From NCBI RefSeq assembly GCF_011764445.1, contig NZ_BLPG01000002.1, forward strand, positions 1 through 64,000: a stretch of DNA of 64,000 nucleotides. Reading direction: 5' to 3'. The stretch is from Phytohabitans rumicis. GTDB taxonomy: Bacteria; Actinomycetota; Actinomycetes; Mycobacteriales; Micromonosporaceae. The notes below the pieces were generated by a model. That model searched no databases, had not been told where the DNA came from, and saw only the letters and a list, made by a program, of their open reading frames with translations. Below, piece by piece: positions 1-10,900 of this stretch; the stretch's first letter is position 1; every line of letters starts with the position of its first letter. Position numbers and translations under genes: made by a program.

Positions 1-776
1 CGCGGCGCGTTCGAGCTCCGCGGCGACGTCGATCTCGGCGACCGCGAGGCCGGCCTTGCCGAAGGTGCGGGCCAGGATGTCACCGCCGGGACCCACCACC
101 TTGGACTGTCCGAGGAAGCGCATTCCGCCCATCGCGCCGGTCTGGTTGGACGATGCGAGCACGACCTGGTTCTCGGCGGCGCGGGCCTGGTCGTACAGGT
201 CGAACAGCCGGGACTGGCGGTCCTGGGCCATGCGGGGGCGCGGTTGGTGATGCTGGTCGGCCACGCGGACAGGCAGGCGAGGATGTGCGCGCCGTCGAGG
301 GCGAGGCTGCGGGCCGCCTCCGGGAACGTCTTGTCGTAGTCGATGAGCATGCCGACGCGGCCGACCGGGGTGTCGAAGGCGTCGAAGGTGGCGCCGGGGG
401 TGTAGGCGGCGACCTCGCCGGCGGGCAGGTGGACCTTGCGGTGCCGGCCGAGGACGCCGTCGCCGTTGACGCAGACGGCCGCGTTGTAGCGGACGTTGCC
501 ATCGGCCTCGCAGTATCCGAAGCAGACGGTCATCTCGGCGGCGAGCCGGGCGACCTGAAAGATGAGCGGGTCGTCCGGCTTGAGCGCGGGTGGCAGCGCC
601 TCGGGGTCCGGGTGGCGCAGGTCGGCGAGGTAGCCGCCCAGCGCGGCGTCGGGCAGCACGAGCAGCCCGGCGCCCTGGGCCCGGGCGTCGTGGATGAGCT
701 TGCCGATCCTGGCCAGGTCGAAGTCGAGGTCGCGGCCGAAGTGGGCGGCGGCGGCCGCGATCCTGACCGTACTCAT
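1..776 (-). CDS. Carbon-nitrogen hydrolase-like protein with degenerate catalytic triad (NitA), partial, frameshifted
   Basis: Nitrilase-superfamily protein, clearly a paralogue of the next upstream gene (773-1624): both begin MST-R-AA and share GGYL, CEADG, HRKVH, FDTPVGRVGM and YDK-FPE blocks. The superfamily normally uses a Glu-Lys-Cys triad. Here the Glu position is Asp43 (LPDAALGG), Lys114 is kept (RHRKVH), and the nucleophile Cys is Asp146 (MLIDYDK). It is therefore unlikely to work as a thiol amidase; a structural or regulatory partner role is inference. The start is ATG at 776, overlapping the upstream stop as ATGA, so translation is probably coupled. The frame breaks near 231-236, in a run of five G; one added base restores MAQDR through AENQVV to the window edge. 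The 3' end lies outside the window. Confidence 0.8.
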   Translation of the reverse strand, partial: MSTVRIAAAAAHFGRDLDFDLARIGKLIHDARAQGAGLLVLPDAALGGYLADLRHPDPEALPPALKPDDPLIFQVARLAAEMTVCFGYCEADGNVRYNAAVCVNGDGVLGRHRKVHLPAGEVAAYTPGATFDAFDTPVGRVGMLIDYDKTFPEAARSLALDGAHILACLSAWPTSITNRAPAWPRTASPGCSTCTTRPAPPRTRSCSHRPTRPARWAECASSDSPRWWVPAVTSWPAPSARPASRSPRSTSPRSSNAP

Positions 777-1624
777 GCGCTAGCAGCTCCCACCGGGTAC
801 GTATAAGCCTCCGGGCGCCGGTCGCGGAGGTGACCCATCGAGCGGCGCGCCGTGCGCAGCGCCTCGGCCACGTCGAGTTCGGCGACGGCCATGCCGGCCG
901 TGACGCCGGTATCGGCCAGAACGTCGCCACCGGGGTCGACGACCTTGGCGCTACCGACGAATCGTAGCGACCCGAAGGTCCCGGACTGGTTCGCGGACAG
1001 CCAGACGATCTGGTTCTCCAGCGCCCGGGCCCGGTCGAAGAGGTCGAAGCGGCGCTTCCAGCGATCCTCGGCCAGGTCGGCGGCGGCGTTGGTACGCGAG
1101 CCGGGCCACGCGGACACGCAGACGCCGATCTGCGCCCCGTCCAGGGCCAGCGCCCGGGCGGACTCGGGGAACGCCTTGTCGTAACAGATCATCATGCCGA
1201 CGCGGCCGACCGGGGTGTCGAACGCGCGGAACCGGTCACCGCAGGAGTAGCTGGCGTCCTCGCGCAGCGGCTGGTGCACCTTGCGGTGGTTGCCCAGCAC
1301 GCCGTCGCCGCTTACGCAGACCACGCTGTTGTACCGGGCCTCGCCGTCGGCCTCGCAGTATCCCGCGACGACGACCATCTCGCCGGCGAGCGCGGCCAGG
1401 CGGCGGATCTGCGGCCCGTCCACGGCCAGCGGCGGCGGCCCCGCGTCCGGGCCGCTGTCGCCGTCGAGGCTGAGCAGATAGCCGCCCAGGCACGCCTCGG
1501 GAAGGGCCAGCAGCCGGATGCCGTCGGCGCGGGCGGCGGCGATGAGCCGCTCGACGGTACGGAAGTCCTCGTCGAGGTCGCGGCCGAACTCCTCGGCGAC
1601 GGCGGCCATCCGCAGCGTGCTCAT
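773..1624 (-). CDS. Carbon-nitrogen hydrolase (nitrilase superfamily), NitB
   Basis: 283-residue cytosolic amidase of the nitrilase superfamily, which cleaves C-N bonds of amides or nitriles through a covalent thioester. The full triad is visible: Glu43 (LPEACLGG), Lys115 (NHRKVH) and Cys147 (MMICYDK). It is shorter than classical Nit1 nitrilases (about 330 residues) and looks more like a small-amide or carbamoyl hydrolase; the substrate is unknown. The ATG at 1624 overlaps the stop of the GNAT-AIR gene (ATGA), and its own stop overlaps the start of NitA the same way. The three genes are thus translationally coupled at the end of the Nit1C-like operon. Confidence 0.88.
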   Translation of the reverse strand: MSTLRMAAVAEEFGRDLDEDFRTVERLIAAARADGIRLLALPEACLGGYLLSLDGDSGPDAGPPPLAVDGPQIRRLAALAGEMVVVAGYCEADGEARYNSVVCVSGDGVLGNHRKVHQPLREDASYSCGDRFRAFDTPVGRVGMMICYDKAFPESARALALDGAQIGVCVSAWPGSRTNAAADLAEDRWKRRFDLFDRARALENQIVWLSANQSGTFGSLRFVGSAKVVDPGGDVLADTGVTAGMAVAELDVAEALRTARRSMGHLRDRRPEAYTYPVGAASA

Positions 1625-3012
1625 GCTCTCCCCAATCCGGTCACGGCGCCGGTGACGGCCTGGGTGACCGCACCGTCGGGCCAGCGCAGCCCGACGCCCT
1701 GCCCCTCGGTCAGCTCGCCGCACACCGCGCTGACCGCCGGCCCGGCGGGCAGCGGCGGGCGTCCCGGTGCGTCGGTGGAGACGATGGCGTACCCCGGAAA
1801 GCAGGTCAGCCAGTCGCCGGCGGTGGCGGCGCCCGGTCGCGGAACGGCCGCCACGTCCAGAACGGCCGCGCAGCCGCTCGCCTCGGCCAGCATGCCCAGC
1901 GTTCCCGCGATGCCGGCCATCGAGACGTCCTTGGCGGCGGCCGGGCGGGCCGCGGCCACCGCACCGGTCATCGCGCGGAGCTCGTCGGCGCGGCGCCCGG
2001 TGGTCGAGTCCCACTGCCGGCCGTGGTACCCGGGCCGCCACGCCCCGGCCAGGTCGGCGGTGAGGCGGACCTGGTGGCCCGGCCGCCCCGCGCCGCCCGG
2101 TACCGGGTGGCGGGTACGCCCGAGGGCGGTGACGGTCAGCGCGGCCGGCACGCCGAGCTGGGTGTGCCCGCCGAGGATCGGGGTGCCGTACGCGGCGGCG
2201 GCGCGGCGCAGCCCGGAAAGGACGCGGGCGGCGTGGGACGCGTCGCGGGCGGCGAGCGCGTCGAGCAGGCCCACCGGGGTGGCGCCCATCGCGGCGAGGT
2301 CGTTGACGTTGACCAGGACCGCGCACCAGCCGGCCCACTCGGGGTCACGCTCCACCATGGACGGAAGGATCGCGTCGCAGGCGGCGATCACGTCGCTGCC
2401 GGGTACCGGTGCTCCGTCGTCGCCGACGAAGCCGGCGCCGCCCGGCGACAGCCCCGCCAGCAGCGGCCCGAGCGCCGACTTGGCCGCTTCCGCCTGGGCG
2501 CCGATGCGCCGGATCGGCCAGCGCATCAGCGTGTGCGGGGTGTCCGCGACGGTGACCGGCCGTACCGGCGTCCAGCCGAGGCGGCGGAACAGCGGCTCGT
2601 TGCGGGCCTGCACGGTGGCCTCGAAGCGCAGCACTCCCTCTGTTTCGGCGCGGGCGCAGGCGGCCCGGACCAGGGCCGCGCCGATCCCGCGCGGGCCGCG
2701 GGCCGCGCGGGCGACGGCCAGGCGTCCGCCGGACCACCAGCCGAGGTCCGGGCCGCCGTCGACGGGTCCGAGCCGCACCCCGCCGAGCACCGCGCCGCCC
2801 GGGTCGCGGGCGACGAGGACGACCGTGCGCGGGTCCTCGTCACGCTCGTCCCGGTCGTGGGCGGCGAACAGTCCCTGCTCGTCGACGAAGACGTCCCGGC
2901 GCAGCCGGTGATAGGCGTCCAGCGCGGCCGCGCCGTCCGCCTCCTCGATTCCGAACGCGGGCTGCCGCGCGAGCGTGCTGCGGTCGCCGAGCAGCAGGAG
3001 GATGTCGTTCAC
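1621..3012 (-). CDS. GNAT acetyltransferase / AIR synthase-like fusion (MSMEG_0567 / Sll0786-Sll0787 families)
   Basis: Fusion of about 463 residues. The N-terminal third is a GNAT N-acetyltransferase, with a V-VARDP-GG--GGVRLG strand pair and an RGPRGIGAALVR acetyl-CoA loop. From about residue 190 it is a PurM-like AIR-synthase domain: GDDGAPVPGSDV metal/nucleotide loop, VNVNDLAAMGATP, a GGHTQLG glycine-rich segment and AKDVSMAGIAG. In cyanobacteria these are separate genes (sll0786, sll0787); in mycobacteria the parts belong to the MSMEG_0567 family. PurM relatives bind ATP and form or activate small metabolites, but no reaction is established here. I chose GTG at 3012, five bases after the radical SAM stop, over longer in-frame extensions that would run into that gene. 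Confidence 0.85.
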   Translation of the reverse strand: MNDILLLLGDRSTLARQPAFGIEEADGAAALDAYHRLRRDVFVDEQGLFAAHDRDERDEDPRTVVLVARDPGGAVLGGVRLGPVDGGPDLGWWSGGRLAVARAARGPRGIGAALVRAACARAETEGVLRFEATVQARNEPLFRRLGWTPVRPVTVADTPHTLMRWPIRRIGAQAEAAKSALGPLLAGLSPGGAGFVGDDGAPVPGSDVIAACDAILPSMVERDPEWAGWCAVLVNVNDLAAMGATPVGLLDALAARDASHAARVLSGLRRAAAAYGTPILGGHTQLGVPAALTVTALGRTRHPVPGGAGRPGHQVRLTADLAGAWRPGYHGRQWDSTTGRRADELRAMTGAVAAARPAAAKDVSMAGIAGTLGMLAEASGCAAVLDVAAVPRPGAATAGDWLTCFPGYAIVSTDAPGRPPLPAGPAVSAVCGELTEGQGVGLRWPDGAVTQAVTGAVTGLGRA

Positions 3013-3017
3013 GCCCG

Positions 3018-4097
3018 TCAGCCGCCCGCGCTCGGCAGGACGCTGCAGGCGCCGCAGGCCGCGCACCCGGCCCGCTGGTCGGCGCCGGACATGCCCGCCG
3101 CTTGGAGCTTGGCGGCAACCCGCGCGGTGACGTCCGCGAGCAGCCGCGGGTCGGGCGCGCGGGCGCCGTCGCGGGCGGCCAGGGTGCCGCGCATCGGGCG
3201 GAACGGCACCACGAACGGGTAGACGCCGCGGTCGATCAGCCGGCCGGCGCCGGCGACCAGCTCGTCGGGGTCCTCGCCGAGACCCACCAGCAGGTACGTC
3301 GAGACGCGGTTGCGCCCGAACACGCGGACCGCCTCATCCCACGCCGCCTCGTACTCGGCCATGGACACTGTGGACTTGCCGGGCATCCAGCGGCGCCGCA
3401 CCTGCTCGTCGAGGGACTCCACGTGGATGCCGATCGCGGTGGCCCCGGCCGCGTGCAGCTCGCCGATCCAGGCGAGGTCGGCGGGCGGCTCGCACTGGAC
3501 CTGGATCGGCAGCCCCGGCACGGCCGCCAGGACCGCGCGGACCGACCGGGCCAGCGCGCGGGCGCCCCGGTCCGGGCCGGTGGTGGTGCCGGTCGTCAGC
3601 ACCATCTGCCGCACCCCGTCCAGCCGCACCGCCGCCTGCGCCACCTCGGCGAGCTGGGACGGCGTCTTGGCGGCCACGGTGGCAGCGGAGCGCAGCGACT
3701 CCTCGATGGTGCAGAACCGGCACCGCTCCGGCTCGGCGTACCGGATGCAGGTCTGCACGACGGTGGTGGCGAGCACGTCGGCGCCGTGCAGGCGGGCGAT
3801 CTGCTCGTAGGGCACCCCGTCCGCGGTGGTCAGGTCGTAGAACCGGGGCCGCCGTACGGGTGTCAGGGTGAGCCCGGTGTCGTCGTCGCCGAGCCAGACC
3901 CGGCCGTCGCGAACGGCGTACGGGCTCGCCGGGTTGGTGGGCAGCGCGGCGTTGGCACCGTCGATGAGGACGTGGTCGTCGCCGCTCGGCCCGGCGCCGT
4001 CCGGCCTGCGCAGCGTGTCCGCACGGACGCCGTGCAGGGCGAGCTCGGCGCGGGTCATGATCCGCACAGCCACCGTCGTGTCGGTGCCAACGCTCAC
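3018..4097 (-). CDS. Radical SAM protein, MSMEG_0568 family
   Basis: Enzyme of about 359 residues. The iron-sulfur motif is CX8CX2C (TCIRYAEPERCRFC), the unusual spacing seen in the MSMEG_0568 family, and it should bind a 4Fe-4S cluster that cleaves S-adenosylmethionine. A GTTTG SAM-binding glycine patch and an IHVESLDEQVRRRWMPGK segment follow in a TIM-barrel layout. The C-terminus carries a second cysteine group (CAACGAC, CX2CX2C) that could hold another cluster. The start is GTG at 4097, preceded by an AGGGG ribosome-binding site. It lies 11 bases after the MSMEG_0572-like gene and just before the GNAT-AIR fusion. The substrate is unknown; the operon implies a nitrogenous small molecule. 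Confidence 0.9.
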   Translation of the reverse strand: MSVGTDTTVAVRIMTRAELALHGVRADTLRRPDGAGPSGDDHVLIDGANAALPTNPASPYAVRDGRVWLGDDDTGLTLTPVRRPRFYDLTTADGVPYEQIARLHGADVLATTVVQTCIRYAEPERCRFCTIEESLRSAATVAAKTPSQLAEVAQAAVRLDGVRQMVLTTGTTTGPDRGARALARSVRAVLAAVPGLPIQVQCEPPADLAWIGELHAAGATAIGIHVESLDEQVRRRWMPGKSTVSMAEYEAAWDEAVRVFGRNRVSTYLLVGLGEDPDELVAGAGRLIDRGVYPFVVPFRPMRGTLAARDGARAPDPRLLADVTARVAAKLQAAGMSGADQRAGCAACGACSVLPSAGG

Positions 4098-4108
4098 GGC
4101 AGGCCCCT

Positions 4109-4624
4109 CTACAGCTGGTAGGTGGAGTTGATGATGGCGCCCTTGCGGGCGTAGTGGATGATCGCGTCCTGGACGTCGAGCGGGTGGGTCGGTATGACGC
4201 CCTCGATGAGGTCCTCCTCGCGGGCGCCGTGCAGCGACAGCCCGAAACGGCAGCAGTACACCTTGCCGCCCTCGGCGAGGAACGTCTTGAGCTGGTTGTT
4301 GATGTTGTGCTCGCCGGGGAACGCCGAATTGCCGGTGGTCGGGAAGCCGCGGGTGGCCAGGCAGTTCAGCGAGCCGGGCCCGTAGAAGTAGATGGCCGAC
4401 TCGAAGCCCTTGCGCAGTGCGCGGGTGGCCTGGAGCACGGCCACGAAGCTGACGGACGACTCGTGCGCGATGCCGTGCACGAGGGTGAAGTACGCCTCGC
4501 CGTTCTCGGCCTTGTAGTCCGGGAACACCTTGGTGCTGCCGTAGATGCTGGAGCCCTCGGGCAGCGACGGGTGCGGGATCTCCGCGAGGCTCTGCTTCTC
4601 CAGCTCGCTCAGGTCGACGGTCAT
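4109..4624 (-). CDS. MSMEG_0572 / Sll0783 family nitrogen-starvation response protein
   Basis: 171-residue cytosolic protein recognised by its whole-length pattern: an N-terminal IYGSTKVFPDYKAENG block, FTLVHGIAHESS, a YFYGPGSLNC motif, a KVYCCRFGLSLHG motif with adjacent cysteines, and a C-terminus ending near INSTYQL. Sll0783 of Synechocystis is a nitrogen-starvation-induced protein, and family members always travel with the radical SAM and nitrilase genes of the Nit1 cluster. Biochemical function is unknown; the fold may resemble DsrE sulfur carriers, and the paired cysteines are the obvious candidate active residues (inference). Start ATG at 4624; a purine-rich site (GGAGAGGA) precedes it. 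Confidence 0.9.
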   Translation of the reverse strand: MTVDLSELEKQSLAEIPHPSLPEGSSIYGSTKVFPDYKAENGEAYFTLVHGIAHESSVSFVAVLQATRALRKGFESAIYFYGPGSLNCLATRGFPTTGNSAFPGEHNINNQLKTFLAEGGKVYCCRFGLSLHGAREEDLIEGVIPTHPLDVQDAIIHYARKGAIINSTYQL

Positions 4625-4663
4625 GTCCTCTCCTTCGGTTGGGGGTTGGTCCTTCGGTTTGGG

Positions 4664-5479
4664 TCAGCGGTACAGGGTGGAAAAGTTCTCCCGGAAGACC
4701 AGGTCTGCCAGGTCGCCGTCGCCGGTGGCGGCGGCCATCCGGGCGTACTCGCCGGCGTGGTCGCCCCACGGCTGGTCGCTGGCGAACAGCACCCGGTCGT
4801 GCCCGATGCCGCGGCGCTCGATCTCGCGGGCCAGCCAGTACGGTGCGAAGCCGATGGCCCACGACAGGTCGGTGTAGACGCGCTTGCCGGCCGCGATCCA
4901 GTCGAAGAAGCGGGAACCGGCCAGCTTGATGTGCCCGCTCATCCCGCCGCCGAAGTGGACCAGGTGCACCGGGACCCGGTCGGCGTACCAGTCGACCAGG
5001 TTGCCGACCTCGTCGATGTCGGACGCGGCGCCGGGGGAGGTGTGGACGTGCACGACCAGGCCGAGGCGCTCGGCCGTACCGAAGATCTGGTCCAGCAGCG
5101 GGCGGCAGCCCGGGTCGGTCGCCCGGCCGCCGAGCAGGAAGCTCAGCTTCAACGCCCGCACACCGCGCTCTCCCGCCAGCGCGAGGGCGGCCGTGGTGCG
5201 CTGCTCGTCGTCCGGGCGGGGGGAGACCCACAGCCCGGCGCGGATCCGCTCGTCGGTCTGCGCCGCCTCGACGACCAACTCGTTGAACGAGAAGGCGACC
5301 CCGGGATCCGGTACCCCGTAGTTGGGCAGCACCAGCGCCCGCTCGGTGCCCTCGGCGTCCAGATCGGCGAGGAGTTGTTTGATGGTGGCGCGTGCGGTCG
5401 TGTCCGGGTTGACCGGTGGGCCACCGTAGAACGGGTACGCCGGCAGCACGCCGATGTGGCGGTGAGCGTCGAAAACCAT
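4664..5479 (-). CDS. Metal-dependent amidohydrolase (TIM barrel, Amidohydro_2 type)
   Basis: 271-residue hydrolase. Metal ligands are visible: HRH near residue 6, His in VHVHTSPG (about 145), His in VHLVHFGGG (about 175), and Asp in FASDQPW (about 235), all characteristic of the amidohydrolase-2 family (decarboxylases and lactone or amide hydrolases). ATG at 5479 is preceded by GGGAGG and lies 14 bases after the monooxygenase stop, so it is the second gene of the operon. An amidohydrolase is not one of the defining Nit1C members that I know of, so its presence suggests a lineage-specific hydrolysis step. The substrate is unknown. Confidence 0.85.
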   Translation of the reverse strand: MVFDAHRHIGVLPAYPFYGGPPVNPDTTARATIKQLLADLDAEGTERALVLPNYGVPDPGVAFSFNELVVEAAQTDERIRAGLWVSPRPDDEQRTTAALALAGERGVRALKLSFLLGGRATDPGCRPLLDQIFGTAERLGLVVHVHTSPGAASDIDEVGNLVDWYADRVPVHLVHFGGGMSGHIKLAGSRFFDWIAAGKRVYTDLSWAIGFAPYWLAREIERRGIGHDRVLFASDQPWGDHAGEYARMAAATGDGDLADLVFRENFSTLYR

Positions 5480-5493
5480 CGCGTGGGCCTCCC

Positions 5494-6798
5494 TCACCCG
5501 ACCGGCAGCGCGGCGGCCAGCGTCGTCGGTGCCCCGGTGAGCGCCCCGCACACGTCGGCGAGGCGGCGGGATGCGTCGATGTGGTCGGCCAGGAACTCGG
5601 CGTCGCGCCCGACCGCCTCGAACCGGCCCGAGCCCCAGCTGTACTGCCACGGCAGGCCGAGGAAGTACAACCCGGGGCAGTTCGTCACGCCGCGCCAGTG
5701 CATCGGGTAGCCGCGCCCGTCGAACACGGGGACCTCGATCCAGCGATGGTCGCGGGCGAAGCCGGTCGACCACACCACCGAGGTGATCCCGGCCGCCCGC
5801 ACGTCCACCGTGCGCGGGTGGTCGGCGTCCGGCTCCCACACCGGTACGTACCGAGGTTCCACCGGCGCGTCGATCCCGCGCTCCGCGATGTACGCGTCGA
5901 TGCTGTCCTTGATGCCCTCGGCCACCGCGTCGGCGTGGTCGAGGTTGGCCGCCAGGTCGCCGCCGAACTCGAGGGTCGAGCCGTGGACGGCGGCCAGCCG
6001 CCCGTACAGCCGCATCCCGTCCTTGGCGAACGCCCGCAGGTCGATGTCGCGGCCGCCGTCGCGGCCGGTGACGTAGTGGTTGACCCGCATCCGTACGGCG
6101 TCCACGTCGGGGAACTCGTCGACTCCCTTGCCGTAGTGGCCCATCGCGTCCAGCCACGCGACGCAGTCGCGGCCGCGGTAGAAGCGGGCCACCCGCGGCG
6201 CGCCGCCGACGGCCAGATGTACCTGCCGGCCGGCCAGATGCAGGTCCTCGGCGATCTGGCAGCCCGACTGCCCGGTGCCGACGACCAGCACCGCGCCGTC
6301 GGGGAGCTGGTCCGGACTTCGGTACTGGCAGGAGTGCGGCTGAACCAGGTCGCCGCAGAGCCGCTCCGCCATCCGCGGAACCGACGGCGAGTGGTACGGG
6401 CCGGTCGCCACGACGACCTGGTCGGCGGTCACCGCACCGGCCGATGTGGACAGTTCAAAGAGGCCGGTGGCCGATCGTCGCAGCCGCTCGACCCGTACCC
6501 CCTCGACCAGCGGCGGCTGGAAGAAGGACACGTAGTCCTCCAGGTAGCGCACGATCTCGTCGCGGACCATGAACCCGTCCGGATCCGGCCCCCGGTAAGC
6601 GAACCCGGGCAACCGGCACTGCCAGTTCGGGGTCACCAGGCAGAAGGAGTCCCACCGGCGCGTGCGCCACTCGTGCCCGACCCGATTGGCTTCCAGGACG
6701 ACGTGCGCGATGCCGCGCCGGCGCAGGCAGTAGCTTACGGACAGGCCGGCCTGGCCACCGCCGACCACCACAACGGGATAATGGGTGCCAGTGAGCAT
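5494..6798 (-). CDS. Flavin-dependent oxidoreductase, MSMEG_0569 family
   Basis: 434-residue class B-like monooxygenase, first gene of the Nit1C-like operon. It has an FAD Rossmann motif (VVVVGGGQAGLS, residues 9-20), the family hallmark TRRWDSFCLVTPNWQCRLP, and a second NADPH Rossmann motif (VVGTGQSGCQ, about 172-181). VVWSTGFARDH lies late in the protein. Family members accompany Nit1 clusters and probably oxidise a nitrogen-containing substrate; the reaction is unproven. I chose ATG at 6798 because GGAGG sits six bases upstream; an in-frame codon eight residues earlier lacks one. Confidence 0.9.
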   Translation of the reverse strand: MLTGTHYPVVVVGGGQAGLSVSYCLRRRGIAHVVLEANRVGHEWRTRRWDSFCLVTPNWQCRLPGFAYRGPDPDGFMVRDEIVRYLEDYVSFFQPPLVEGVRVERLRRSATGLFELSTSAGAVTADQVVVATGPYHSPSVPRMAERLCGDLVQPHSCQYRSPDQLPDGAVLVVGTGQSGCQIAEDLHLAGRQVHLAVGGAPRVARFYRGRDCVAWLDAMGHYGKGVDEFPDVDAVRMRVNHYVTGRDGGRDIDLRAFAKDGMRLYGRLAAVHGSTLEFGGDLAANLDHADAVAEGIKDSIDAYIAERGIDAPVEPRYVPVWEPDADHPRTVDVRAAGITSVVWSTGFARDHRWIEVPVFDGRGYPMHWRGVTNCPGLYFLGLPWQYSWGSGRFEAVGRDAEFLADHIDASRRLADVCGALTGAPTTLAAALPVG

Positions 6799-6913
6799 CG
6801 CGTCCTCCAACCGGGCCACGGGGACCCGCGTTGGGGACTACTTCAACGGCCGGCCGTTACCGGTCAAAGTCATCCGGAACAAAGCTCCGTTTCACACATC
6901 TCACACCGCTGGA
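6799..6913 (-). promoter_or_regulatory. Promoter region of the Nit1C-like operon with 14-bp perfect palindrome
   Basis: The only non-coding gap upstream of the seven-gene operon. It contains the perfect palindrome AACGGCCGGCCGTT at 6845-6858. On the minus strand a TTGACC -35-like hexamer precedes the palindrome and a weak -10 could follow it, so a repressor bound here would sit between the promoter elements. The palindrome is seen directly; its use as an operator is inference. Confidence 0.45.
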
Positions 6914-7927
6914 CTAGACCGGCGGGTTGGCGCACGAGGGTCGAAGCAGGGCCTGATGCCTCGGCGACGTCAGGTTCTGGGCGGACAGGTAGGAGACCCC
7001 GGTATCCGCGGAGGACACGGTGCCGCCCTCGCGGATCATCTTCACCGCGGCGTTCACGCCGTCGTAGCCCATGCGAAACGGGTTCTGCGCCACGAGGCTG
7101 GTGATGACGCCGTCCTGCATGAGTTTGACGCCCTGCGGCGCGGCGTCCCATCCGACGAGTGTGACCCGTCCGGCTTTCCCGCTCTTCTGGACCGCCTCGG
7201 CCGCGCCCAGCGCGGTCGGTTCGTTGGCGGCGAAGATCCCGTCGAGGTCCGGAGTCGTGGCGAGGATCCGTTCGGTGACACTGACCGCGGTGGTGAAGTC
7301 GGACTGCGTCGACTGCTCCGCCACGATCCTGATTCGCGGATGCCGCGCGAGACCCGCCTTGAAGCCCTGCGCCCGCTGGTCGTTGGTGGCCGAGCCGGGT
7401 TCATACAGAAAGAACGCTATCTTCTTCTCGCCCGGACCGAGCGCCTGTGCCAGCAGGTCGGCGGCCCGAGTCGCGGCGGCGACATTGTCGGTGGCGAACA
7501 GGGGCACCCCCGACGGTTGTGGGTACGTGCCCGAGTCGATGTTCACCACCACCTTGCGGTTGGCCAACGCCTGATCGGTGATGGGCGCGAGCGCCGCGGC
7601 GTCTGTGGCCGCGTAGACGATGCCGTCGACGTCCTGGCCGATGAAACGCTGTAGCAGGTTGACCTGGCCGACCACGTCGGTCTCGGCGGTGACGCCGTCC
7701 CAGCGGACGGTCACTTGTTCATGTTTGGAGGCCGCGCATTCCGCGCCCAGACGTACCTGTCGCCAGAAGTCGAACCCCAACGCCTTGGGCACCACCGCGA
7801 GCGTGATCGGGCTCGAATTCCGCGGACGGGTTGTCGATTCGGCAGGTGGCGTCCCGTCTCCGCCACAGCCCGCCGCGGCGCTCGCGCAGGTCGCCAGGAG
7901 CAGGATCAAACCGGTGCGTACTCGCAT
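6914..7927 (-). CDS. Sugar-type periplasmic binding lipoprotein (Peripla_BP_4)
   Basis: 337-residue extracellular solute-binding protein of the ribose/autoinducer-2 type. A signal peptide ends in a lipobox (SAAAGC) near residue 20, so it should be lipid-anchored outside the membrane. The fold is recognisable from VDGIVYAATDAAAL, NRKVVVNIDSG, a DGIFAANEPTALGAAEAV segment and TLVGWDAAPQG. There is no ABC ATPase or permease beside it. The gene starts 12 bases after the GGDEF-EAL gene on the same strand, so it more likely feeds sensing than transport (inference). The ligand is unknown. Confidence 0.85.
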   Translation of the reverse strand: MRVRTGLILLLATCASAAAGCGGDGTPPAESTTRPRNSSPITLAVVPKALGFDFWRQVRLGAECAASKHEQVTVRWDGVTAETDVVGQVNLLQRFIGQDVDGIVYAATDAAALAPITDQALANRKVVVNIDSGTYPQPSGVPLFATDNVAAATRAADLLAQALGPGEKKIAFFLYEPGSATNDQRAQGFKAGLARHPRIRIVAEQSTQSDFTTAVSVTERILATTPDLDGIFAANEPTALGAAEAVQKSGKAGRVTLVGWDAAPQGVKLMQDGVITSLVAQNPFRMGYDGVNAAVKMIREGGTVSSADTGVSYLSAQNLTSPRHQALLRPSCANPPV

Positions 7928-7938
7928 GTCGGATTCCC

Positions 7939-10900
7939 TTATAGGCGCGGCACGTCTGGGCGGGGACGGCCGAAGTAGTAACCCTGAGCCTGATCGCAGC
8001 CCAGTTCCAGCAGAGCCTGAAGCTGTTCGACGTTCTCGACGCCTTCGGCGATCGTGGTCAGGCCCAGGGACTTGCCCAAGCCGATCACGGAGGCGACGAT
8101 CTCGCGGTCCGAGCTCTGCTCCACCATGTCGGCGACGAAGGACTGGTCGATCTTGATGAAGCTCACCGGCAGCCGCTTGAGATAGGTCAACGACGAGTAC
8201 CCGGTGCCGAAGTCGTCGATGCCGAGCTGCACACCAAGGTCACGGATGTGTTCGAGTTGCCGCAACGACGCGACATCGGCCTCGAGCAGGATCGTCTCGG
8301 TCAACTCCAGCGCGAGGCACTGCGGGGCGAGCCCGGAGTCCGCCAGCGCGGACTCCACGGTGGCGACCAGCCCGGGCGAGGCCACCTGCCGGAATGACAG
8401 GTTGACGGCTATCTTCAGCGATGGTGGCACCACATCGGCTGCCTGCCACTGTGCGAGCTGCGCGCTCGCCGATGACAGCACCCAGGCGCCGATCGGCACG
8501 ATCAGACCGGTCTCCTCCGCCACCTCCATGAACACCTTTGGTGAAAGCACACCGCGATCCGGATCCGCCAGGCGCAGCAACGATTCCAGACCGACCATGC
8601 GACCGGTGCCCAGATCGACGATGGGCTGGTAGTCCAATCGGAATCCGCCTTCGCGTACGGCGCGACGTACCCCCGTCTCGACGGCGACCCGTTCGAGCGT
8701 CCGAGCTCGCAGCGTGTCGTCGAAGATCTCGTAGCGGTTCTTCCCCTGGACTTCGCGTAGTACATGGCGGCGTCCGCGTCGCGGATCAACTCTTCGGGAT
8801 CGGTCGGGGATCCCGCCGCGATCGCGATGCCTACGCTGGCCGTCACGACGGCCTCCGCGCCGGCGACCTCGACAGGGGCACCCAGGATCGGCAGCAGCCG
8901 CTCGGCGATATCGACAGCATGCTGTGCCGAAGGCAGATTCCGGCAGAGGATGACGAACTCGTCGCCGCCGACCCGGGCGACGGTGTCGTCCGGATGGACG
9001 CCGCGCTCCAGCCGGCGGCCGGTCACTCGCAGCACCTGGTCGCCGACATCGTGGCCCAGGCTGTCATTGATCAGCTTGAAGCCGTCCAGGTCGACGAAGA
9101 GCAGAGCACTCCTTCCGGCCGTTTGGTGATCCACTGTCAACGCCTCACGCAACTGCTGCATCAACAGCACCCGGTTGGGCAGCGCGGTGAGCGAATCGTG
9201 CAGCGCCTGGTGGACCAGCTTCTCTTCGGCGGCACGCCGCGCCGTGACATCTTCGATCTGCGTCACAAAGTACAGCGGCGCGCCGTCTCTGCCACGAACC
9301 GCCGAGGACGAGACGAGCACCCGTACGGCCTGGCCATTGGCGCGCAGGTAGCGCTTCTCTCCGTGGAAGATCGAGATTTCACCGGCCAGCATCGACCGGA
9401 ACGCGCCAAGGGTCTCGGCACGGTCGTCCGGGTGCGTGACCTCGACCGCGCTCATGCCGAGCAGTTCGGACTCGGTATATCCCAGCATCTTGCACAGGGC
9501 CGGGTTGACCTGCATGAAGCGCTTGTCCACGCCGGTGAGGCACATGCCGATCGTGGCGTTGTCGAACGCTTGCTGGAAGCGCTCGCGCGCCTCGCTGAGC
9601 TGGGTCTCCGCGAGGCGGCGAGCCGTGATGTCTATCCCGAGGCGATGACATGCGTGGCTGTTCCAGCCTGGTCGAGCAACGCGCCGCTCGACCAGGCGAT
9701 GTGCCGCCGGCTCCCGTCCCGGCTGATCCACGTGCTCTCGTTGGCGGCGGGGTAGTCGTTGGCCGCCAGCATCCGGGCAAAGGCCGTCCGCGCGATGTCC
9801 ACCTCCTCCGCGGGGAGAAACACATCCCAGTACGCCCTGCCCTTCACCTCCGCCAACCGGTATCCGGTCGTACTCTCGCAGGCGCGATTGAACCGGACGA
9901 TGCGGCCCTCGCGGTCGAGCACGAGCACCAGGCTGCCCGCGACGTCGAGAAGGGCGCTGGAGAAGTCCCGCTCGGTGCGCAGGGTCCGCTGCGAGTGCGC
10001 CAGCCGCTCGGCCATGTCGTTGAAGGCGTCGGACAGCGCGCCGACCTCGTCGCGGCTGCGTACCTGAACGCGGCGGGTCAGCTCGCCACCGGAGAACTCG
10101 ACCGCGGCCCGTGCGACCGTGCCGATATCCGCGGCGATCCGGCGCGACAGCCGCCCGACGAGCAGCAGCATAAGAATGATCGCGAGAAGGATGCTGCCAA
10201 GGGAGACAGCCATTTGCTGGAGGTGGCCGGAGCGGCGATCCTGTAGCAGCTGCCGCTCGTGTTCGACCATCGCGCTCCACAGTCCGCCCAGGGCGCGGGC
10301 CGTTTCGTTGACCGTGGCGGCGTACGCCGACCGATCCAGTCGTACGGGGGAGGACTGGACGAAGTCTCGGGTGGTCAACTGGTTGAGGTTGGCGATGGCG
10401 GCGTACGCCGACTGGAGCGGCACGGCCAGCGAGTCCGCGTGGCCGGCGTTGCCCCAGTGTCTGAAGGCCGTGTAGAGGTTGTTCTGCAACTCGTCGATGC
10501 GCTGGCCCAGCCCACTGACGATCGAGGCGGCCCGGGCGCGGTCGAGGAACACGGGCCCGGCCTGGAGCATCTGGTCGACCGTCGTGCCCAGCCGCATGGT
10601 GTCGTCCGTCAGTTCAGGCACCTGGCTGATGAGAGCTGTCGCCAGGCGGTAGGCGTCCGGAGCGGGGTCGATCGTCAGGTTGGACGTGATCCCGATATGG
10701 TCGATCAAGGATCGAACCTGGGCGATCATCACGTCGTGGGCGACGATGTCGCTGGAGGCGGTGTGTTGGGTGGCCTTCCAACGCTGCCACTCGCGGAGCT
10801 GCCCCGCGACGGTGGCGCTCTCGTTGAGATCGGCGCCTGCGGAGTTCAGCTGGCGGCCGAGCTTTTCGTCGATGGAAGTCAATGCCGCGAAGCCGTCGTC

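Follow-up and report, generated by a model that had tools for sequence, protein, structure and literature searches.

A Nit1C/gpr-type operon without a classical nitrilase in Phytohabitans rumicis pairs a probable cysteine C–N hydrolase with a conserved non-cysteine paralog

We analysed a stretch of 64,000 nucleotides from Phytohabitans rumicis (the window), which runs from base 1 onward of contig C2 (NZ_BLPG01000002.1; 1,028,826 bases) in a three-contig, 10.7-Mb assembly. At its left edge, seven minus-strand genes are packed from position 6798 down to base 1, with gaps of 5–39 bp or 4-bp overlaps between them. They encode a flavoprotein, a metal-dependent hydrolase-like protein (AMH), an MSMEG_0572 family protein, a radical SAM protein, a GNAT/AIR fusion protein and two small carbon–nitrogen (C–N) hydrolases, CNH1 and CNH2, both of them Pfam CN_hydrolase members (Table 1). 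The close packing and the family names given in the first-pass annotation were both borne out, the family models scoring above their cut-offs. Profiles TIGR04044, TIGR04043, TIGR04045, TIGR04050 and TIGR04046 all matched at this level, so that ORF1 and the radical SAM, GNAT, AIR and flavoprotein members of the Nit1C gene set are present together.

Relatives of the locus were gathered in two ways. With the radical SAM gene as anchor, 54 loci were collected from all 55 matching genomes except the window's own (the match in L089 is below the cut-off). The second set, the named loci, holds the best 80 of 540 confirmed matches to a CNH2 profile and is skewed to close relatives of the query. Some of these come from the same genomes as loci with a G handle (L096 equals L079 at 100%, and the contigs of L146 and L078 are equally long); as some genomes thus occur twice, the catalytic columns were counted on distinct sequences.

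From these alignments, we observed a clean division between the two hydrolases. Cys147 of CNH1 is kept in 121/121 distinct sequences and the first Glu (position 43) in 120 of the 121; the exception is L037, where the gene is split by a frame break and the column is unreadable. In CNH2, all 107 distinct sequences have Asp in the Cys147 column and none has the first Glu, position 43 being Asp in 99, Gly in 6, His in 1 and Gln in 1. Lys115 and Glu122 are kept in every distinct sequence of both groups. At a threshold of 85%, 11 columns switch cleanly between CNH1 and CNH2 and 109 are conserved alike in both. CNH2 is not a cysteine hydrolase, because Asp replaces the catalytic Cys in all 107 distinct relatives; the earlier expectation of two hydrolytic steps by the C–N hydrolases is therefore not supported.

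CNH2 is nevertheless under strong conservation. In the 29 loci that were fetched by the radical SAM gene, and not by CNH2, the mean pairwise identity is 0.669 for CNH2 vs 0.628 for CNH1; CNH2 is the better conserved of the two in 328 of the 406 genome pairs, with substitutions falling mostly at the third codon position. The same holds for 2698/3160 pairs of the best-80 named loci, a set itself chosen by CNH2 similarity. CNH2 forms one clade in the tree with moderate support (94/88). The outgroup, L004 from the window's own genome, sits on a very long branch (7.08) beside CNH2 (81/70), which leaves the root between CNH1 and CNH2 unsettled; with this outgroup the CNH1 group requires two changes. 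A scan for the CNH2 motif DYDKTFPE, with patterns that do not cover the nucleophile column, gave 33 matches; that in G010, which has one mismatch and lacks the Lys, was discarded as a chance match. The remaining matches lie in 32 of the 394 genomes of class Actinomycetes, each of which also belongs to the 54 radical SAM-positive genomes. CNH2 without CNH1 was found in none of the 54 radical SAM-fetched loci, where the locus was readable. A structural model of the CNH2 from L079, a relative of the window copy, has a nitrilase fold with a predicted local distance difference test score (pLDDT) of 87, its best structural matches being an amidase (6ypa) and an N-carbamoylputrescine amidohydrolase (5h8j). 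As judged from its sequence conservation, CNH2 is a maintained, non-cysteine paralog of CNH1, and its conservation without the amidase nucleophile suggests a different job. Among open-licence PMC papers, we found no report of a Cys-to-Asp nitrilase paralog, of the AMH-bearing gene order or of such an active/inactive hydrolase pair.

The window copy of CNH2 itself is incomplete. The contig end truncates it, and the reading frame is broken at ∼231–237, less than 240 bases from the end and beside a run of G. Hence, of the two hydrolases of about 283 residues described in the first-pass annotation, CNH1 has this length, whereas CNH2 cannot be read at it. This break, together with the lost catalytic residues, might suggest a decaying pseudogene. 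However, 71 of 78 residues past the break match the relative L079 in another frame, and the relatives retain CNH2 in a form better conserved than CNH1. We consider decay very unlikely and rejected it, as the gene is kept and conserved across relatives. A second frame break lies nearby at 7939–10280 (minus strand), where a PAS-GGDEF protein and an EAL domain are in different frames, the shift falling near 8740; these genes look as if they were one GGDEF-EAL protein split by a frame break, and are unrelated to the operon. Since this unrelated gene is split likewise, the break in CNH2 is probably an assembly error, as is the second one.

Table 1. The seven genes at the left edge of the window, with their best family matches
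Gene product	Coordinates	Strand	Family match
FAD-dependent oxidoreductase (flavoprotein), MSMEG_0569 family, 434 aa, first gene	5494..6798	-	TIGR04046, 644 bits (cut-off 498)
AMH, Amidohydro_2 metal-dependent hydrolase/decarboxylase-like protein, 271 aa	4664..5479	-	Pfam PF04909, 64.6 bits
MSMEG_0572/Sll0783 family DsrE-like protein, 171 aa	4109..4624	-	TIGR04044, 254 bits (cut-off 110)
MSMEG_0568 family radical SAM protein, 359 aa, GTG start	3018..4097	-	TIGR04043, 497 bits
GNAT acetyltransferase and AIR-synthase-like domain fusion, MSMEG_0567 family, 463 aa, GTG start	1621..3012	-	TIGR04045, 105 bits; TIGR04050, 482 bits (both above cut-off)
CNH1, small C–N hydrolase, 283 aa, catalytic E43/K115/E122/C147	773..1624	-	Pfam PF00795, 136 bits
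CNH2, CNH1 paralog with Asp replacing both the catalytic Cys and the first Glu, truncated at contig end, frame break at ∼231–237	1..776	-	

The operon was described earlier as related to Nit1C and yet devoid of Nit1, and our searches agree with this. Against the Nit6803-type nitrilase model TIGR04048 (cut-off 502.6 bits), CNH1 scores 37 bits and CNH2 24 bits, and neither is thus of this type. Not one of the 394 class genomes has a match above the TIGR04048 cut-off, while the radical SAM model TIGR04043 exceeds its own cut-off in 54 of them. Two genomes, G073 (484 bits) and G329 (460 bits), approach the cut-off, but neither is one of the 55 genomes matched by the radical SAM model; six radical SAM genomes (G035, G051, G068, G115, G295 and G326) have TIGR04048-like nitrilases of ∼229–266 bits elsewhere, none above the cut-off. 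A classical Nit1 directly outside the window was also considered and rejected. A TIGR04048 search of the window's own genome gave nothing at 1e-60, and the other contig ends of the assembly, inspected over 6–8 kb, show no continuation of CNH2 and no glycosyltransferase; the sequence past base 1 is absent from the assembly, and this is as far as the point can be checked. The models closest to CNH1 are those of N-carbamoylputrescine amidase (121 of 410 bits) and of an archaeal nitrilase (110 of 500 bits), both far below the cut-off. For ORF6 (MSMEG_0570; TIGR04042), we obtained no match in the window's own genome at 1e-8 and no tblastn match in the window. This family is present in 16 of the 54 radical SAM genomes, and in 36 of the 69 best-80 loci with enough upstream sequence, where 34 of the 36 copies lie at most 100 bp before the flavoprotein gene.

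The amidohydrolase named as an added second gene was confirmed as an Amidohydro_2 member and has no NCBIfam match. Its residues H6, H8, H144, H146, H172, H175 and D235 are kept in at least 97% of 112 rows, giving HxH, later His residues and Asp at the presumed metal-ligand positions of the family. The AlphaFold2 (AF2) model of AMH has a pLDDT of 86.7, and its best Foldseek matches are 2-pyrone-4,6-dicarboxylate hydrolase, IDCase and dihydroxybenzoate decarboxylase. On the basis of this model, the fold neighbours of AMH are lactonases and decarboxylases, although identity across the 50 best structural matches is 13–18% and a PDB sequence search at E 0.01 gave no match. PDB sequence searches with the MSMEG_0572 and radical SAM proteins likewise yielded nothing useful, and the DsrE match of the former falls slightly below the Pfam cut-off. 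In the radical SAM protein, the cysteines C117-x8-C126-x2-C129 and the C-terminal C345-x2-C348-x2-C351 are kept in at least 97% of 128 rows; the usual radical SAM motif is C-x3-C-x2-C, unlike the C-x8-C-x2-C spacing of this protein. The GNAT–AIR fusion listed in the first-pass annotation is present and is nothing special, being the ordinary MSMEG_0567 form: TIGR04045 and TIGR04050 hit one and the same protein, and two Rhodococcus plasmids likewise have a single gene, annotated as 'MSMEG_0567/sll0787 family protein'.

We then compared the gene order with that of the relatives. The order of the window recurs in 71 of the 80 named loci (with a radical SAM gene split in two in L170), which come from Streptomyces, Microbispora, Amycolatopsis, Paractinoplanes, Saccharopolyspora, Rhodococcus and others. 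Of the nine exceptions, seven run into contig ends, L097 lacks AMH, and L107 keeps only part of the GNAT/AIR gene onward. An MSMEG_0565-type glycosyltransferase follows CNH2 as an eighth gene on the same strand in 78/80 of these loci (all but L154 and L159), at a distance of at most 50 bp in 71; in the window's genome, its expected position would lie beyond the contig end. The arrangement is thus the usual actinomycete form of Nit1C and not, as had been implied, an oddity of this genome.

The loci fetched by the radical SAM gene show several orders. The window order is seen in 7/54, the order AMH-0572-radical SAM-GNAT/AIR-CNH1-flavoprotein-CNH2 in 13/54 and the mycobacterial order 0572-CNH1-flavoprotein-radical SAM-GNAT/AIR-CNH2 in 4/54; another 14 have CNH1 without CNH2, 12 of them also without the flavoprotein in the locus, and the remainder have other orders or are cut. 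CNH1 was seen in 43 of the 54 loci, and in 29 of these together with CNH2. The eleven loci without CNH1 comprise four at contig ends (L056, L062, L065 and L069), the single match below cut-off and six (L083–L088) that do not fit this simple picture, having a more distant radical SAM protein (371–396 bits) and no C–N hydrolase in the locus. In class Actinomycetes, then, CNH1 with its intact Cys site replaces Nit1 in the operon, usually accompanied by CNH2 with an Asp-Lys-Glu-Asp site and by AMH.

Outside the class, a CNH2-profile search covered 346 genomes of the phylum, a set that partly overlaps the class sample. G505 has the order 0572-radical SAM-GNAT/AIR-CNH1-0570-flavoprotein, with neither CNH2 nor AMH in the 16.8 kb inspected. 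The G485 locus has CNH1, 0570 and the flavoprotein without CNH2; it starts with the GNAT/AIR gene at a contig end, so that the preceding genes, AMH included, would lie beyond it. Because these two loci have CNH1 without CNH2, CNH1 appears to have taken the place of Nit1 first, with CNH2, and probably AMH, joining later, as far as gene content can tell. G485, G505 and G525 have extra CNH1-like genes that keep the Cys site and lie apart from all operon genes found, another departure from the simple picture.

Four Rhodococcus plasmid records match CNH2. In two of these records, a gene table that declares itself incomplete names all eight gpr genes but no amidohydrolase, and annotates both hydrolases as 'carbon-nitrogen hydrolase family protein'; in the translation of one of the two, pLP1, CNH2 carries the Asp motif and CNH1 the Cys. 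The Rhodococcus gpr-type sets L180 and L181 reside on large linear plasmids typed as mobilizable. The same IS3 transposase is annotated on both flanks of L180 and an IS256 transposase on one flank of L181; as insertion sequence (IS) transposases flank these plasmid copies, the set may move as a unit. Streptomyces lincolnensis strain L4 has two CNH2 loci (L106 and L109), both with the full order, on two contigs, possibly two operon copies in one genome or a mixed assembly. The CNH1, radical SAM, flavoprotein and AMH proteins of the window have their best matches (82–86% identity) in Streptomyces, Streptosporangium and other loci; they are 68–82% identical to those of five loci of Dactylosporangium, Phytohabitans, Paractinoplanes, Pseudosporangium and Planosporangium. 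Upstream of the operon by 115 bp and on the same strand is a Peripla_BP_4 periplasmic-binding-type protein (6914–7927, minus strand). Between the two, at 6856–6883 of the minus strand, lies TTGTTCCGGATGA, with GGTAAC a little further on, a stretch that is a possible regulatory site. The 8-mer TTCCGGAT was found in 24 of 78 upstream regions of relatives, a count made without a shuffle control.

On balance, we favour, at slightly better than even confidence, the reading that the window edge carries the actinomycete Nit1C/gpr nitrogen-starvation operon, in which CNH1 is the lone cysteine hydrolase and CNH2 its partner in a pathway for a nitrogenous metabolite. As judged from the protein families, the flavoprotein, the radical SAM enzyme, the GNAT/AIR fusion and the glycosyltransferase would build or modify a small nitrogenous metabolite. 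AIR-synthase superfamily members use ATP to activate an amide-type oxygen, and for this reason an amide or nitrile intermediate is plausible; CNH1 would carry out its single cysteine-dependent hydrolysis. AMH would perform a separate, metal-dependent hydrolysis or decarboxylation. CNH2 would most likely form a mixed oligomer with CNH1, in which it would shape or gate the CNH1 site or dock CNH1 to another enzyme of the operon. The net effect, by analogy with the gpr and sll0783 mutants, would be a raised NADPH/NADP ratio in nitrogen-starved cells. The role of CNH2 as a partner subunit of CNH1 has, to our judgement, about an even chance and is the most likely one; we ranked it before an altered chemistry because of the kinship of CNH2 with CNH1 and its tight conservation.

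Several observations weigh against this reading. CNH1 occurs without CNH2 in 14 of the 43 loci that bear it, and can therefore work alone. Over the 54 genomes, 31 have both the flavoprotein and CNH2, 2 the flavoprotein only, 1 CNH2 only and 20 neither (the flavoprotein being counted above its cut-off, the genome lists for radical SAM, CNH2 motif and flavoprotein being compared by hand, and few independent events lying behind the pattern). As CNH2 tracks the flavoprotein so closely, a partnership with that enzyme instead would also fit. A strict dependence of CNH2 on the flavoprotein was rejected on the counter-examples G022, G038, G230, G485 and G505, of which G485 and G505 have the flavoprotein without CNH2. 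The strict GlnR box, GNNAC-N6-GNAAC, is found nowhere in the window and occurs in 6 of 78 upstream regions vs a shuffled mean of 2.76 and maximum of 7, which is no clear enrichment. Finally, the Asp-Lys-Glu-Asp site could itself catalyse some reaction.

The last point leads to a second, less likely possibility, that CNH2 is an enzyme with a changed chemistry. Asp43, Glu122 and Asp147 would place two or three carboxylates beside Lys115 in the pocket, an arrangement that might bind a metal or an amine, or let Asp147 act as nucleophile or base. The invariance of Asp147, Lys115 and Glu122 (107/107) is in line with this proposal, as are the switched columns beyond the catalytic ones, the better conservation of CNH2 and its tracking of the flavoprotein. 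Position 43, however, is Gly, Gln or His in 8/107, so that a strict three-carboxylate site is not universal, and we know of no nitrilase-fold enzyme with an Asp nucleophile, which also counts against it. If true, the non-cysteine chemistry of CNH2 would be a new active-site type in a well-studied superfamily. The more specific version, in which the nitrilase fold is repurposed for metal- or carboxylate-based chemistry beside the flavoprotein, with a pathway product resetting NADPH/NADP, appears somewhat less probable still. Assimilation of cyanide or nitriles by the operon, as for Nit1C in Pseudomonas, is improbable: the gene set is shared, but the nitrilase is precisely the missing part, and CNH1 falls far below the cut-offs of the Nit6803-type model and of its own closest models alike. 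For gpr, it was also proposed that UGA read-through fuses the C–N hydrolase to the flavoprotein as one selenoprotein, with a selenocysteine insertion sequence (SECIS) predicted by the authors (PMC6039565). We regard this as hardly credible here, since the two genes are not adjacent in the window nor in 71/80 named loci, and the 0570 gene sits between them on two Rhodococcus plasmids.

N-carbamoylputrescine amidase and the small archaeal amidase/nitrilase (5h8i, 6ypa and 3ivz) share the fold of the CNH2 model and are the best matching models of CNH1, and we take them to use the same four residues as CNH1. Unlike these enzymes, CNH1 stays far under the family cut-offs, and CNH2 lacks Cys and the first Glu. 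The Amidohydro_2 enzymes 2-pyrone-4,6-dicarboxylate hydrolase, IDCase and ACMSD share with AMH the fold and the conserved His/Asp positions, but AMH differs from them in its low sequence identity and in the lack of any PDB sequence match.

At the level of the operon, two systems are to be compared. Nit1C had no known function at the time of its founding paper (Podar 2005, PMC1199592), and its nitrilase was later given a role in cyanide assimilation in Pseudomonas (PMC11049912). As described in these sources, it shares with the window the 0572, radical SAM, GNAT, AIR and flavoprotein families. The window differs in that Nit1 and ORF6 (0570) are missing, GNAT and AIR are fused, and two small C–N hydrolases and an amidohydrolase are added. 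The closer relative is the gpr operon, MSMEG_0565–0572, of Mycobacterium smegmatis. Six of its eight families are in the window: 0572, 0571 (CNH1), 0569 (flavoprotein), 0568 (radical SAM), 0567 (GNAT/AIR) and, by position, 0566 (CNH2); the seventh, the 0565 glycosyltransferase, follows CNH2 in the relatives as described above. The gene order is different, the window adds AMH, and its genome is without 0570. According to the gpr papers, the operon is induced more than 500-fold by nitrogen starvation via GlnR, a deletion mutant has a lower NADPH/NADP ratio and resists peroxide less well, and a preliminary search for complementing single genes was unsuccessful (PMC6039565), while GlnR binds upstream of 0572 (PMC4222082, PMC3662644). 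In the Synechocystis sll0783 mutant, as reported in PMC3901256, NADPH/NADP is not raised.

The arrangement is standard for actinomycetes, and its mycobacterial version has been studied as gpr (PMC6039565), but we found no reaction assigned to the complete Nit1C/gpr pathway. Operons of this kind are known; the apparently new part, as judged from open-licence papers, is the active/inactive hydrolase pair together with the AMH-bearing order. Nit1C/gpr genes occur in several phyla, and the Synechocystis and mycobacterial mutants share the NADPH/NADP effect under nitrogen starvation. The comparison divides the actinomycete version into a core, a single probable cysteine hydrolase and the added CNH2 and AMH. 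It also offers a candidate reason why single gpr genes failed to complement, in that some may function only together. The position of 0566 is that of CNH2 in L038, L039, L044 and L059, whose CNH2 lacks Cys. By this position, we predict that MSMEG_0566, named an aliphatic amidase in the gpr papers (PMC6039565; also PMC3662644 and PMC4222082), is not one.

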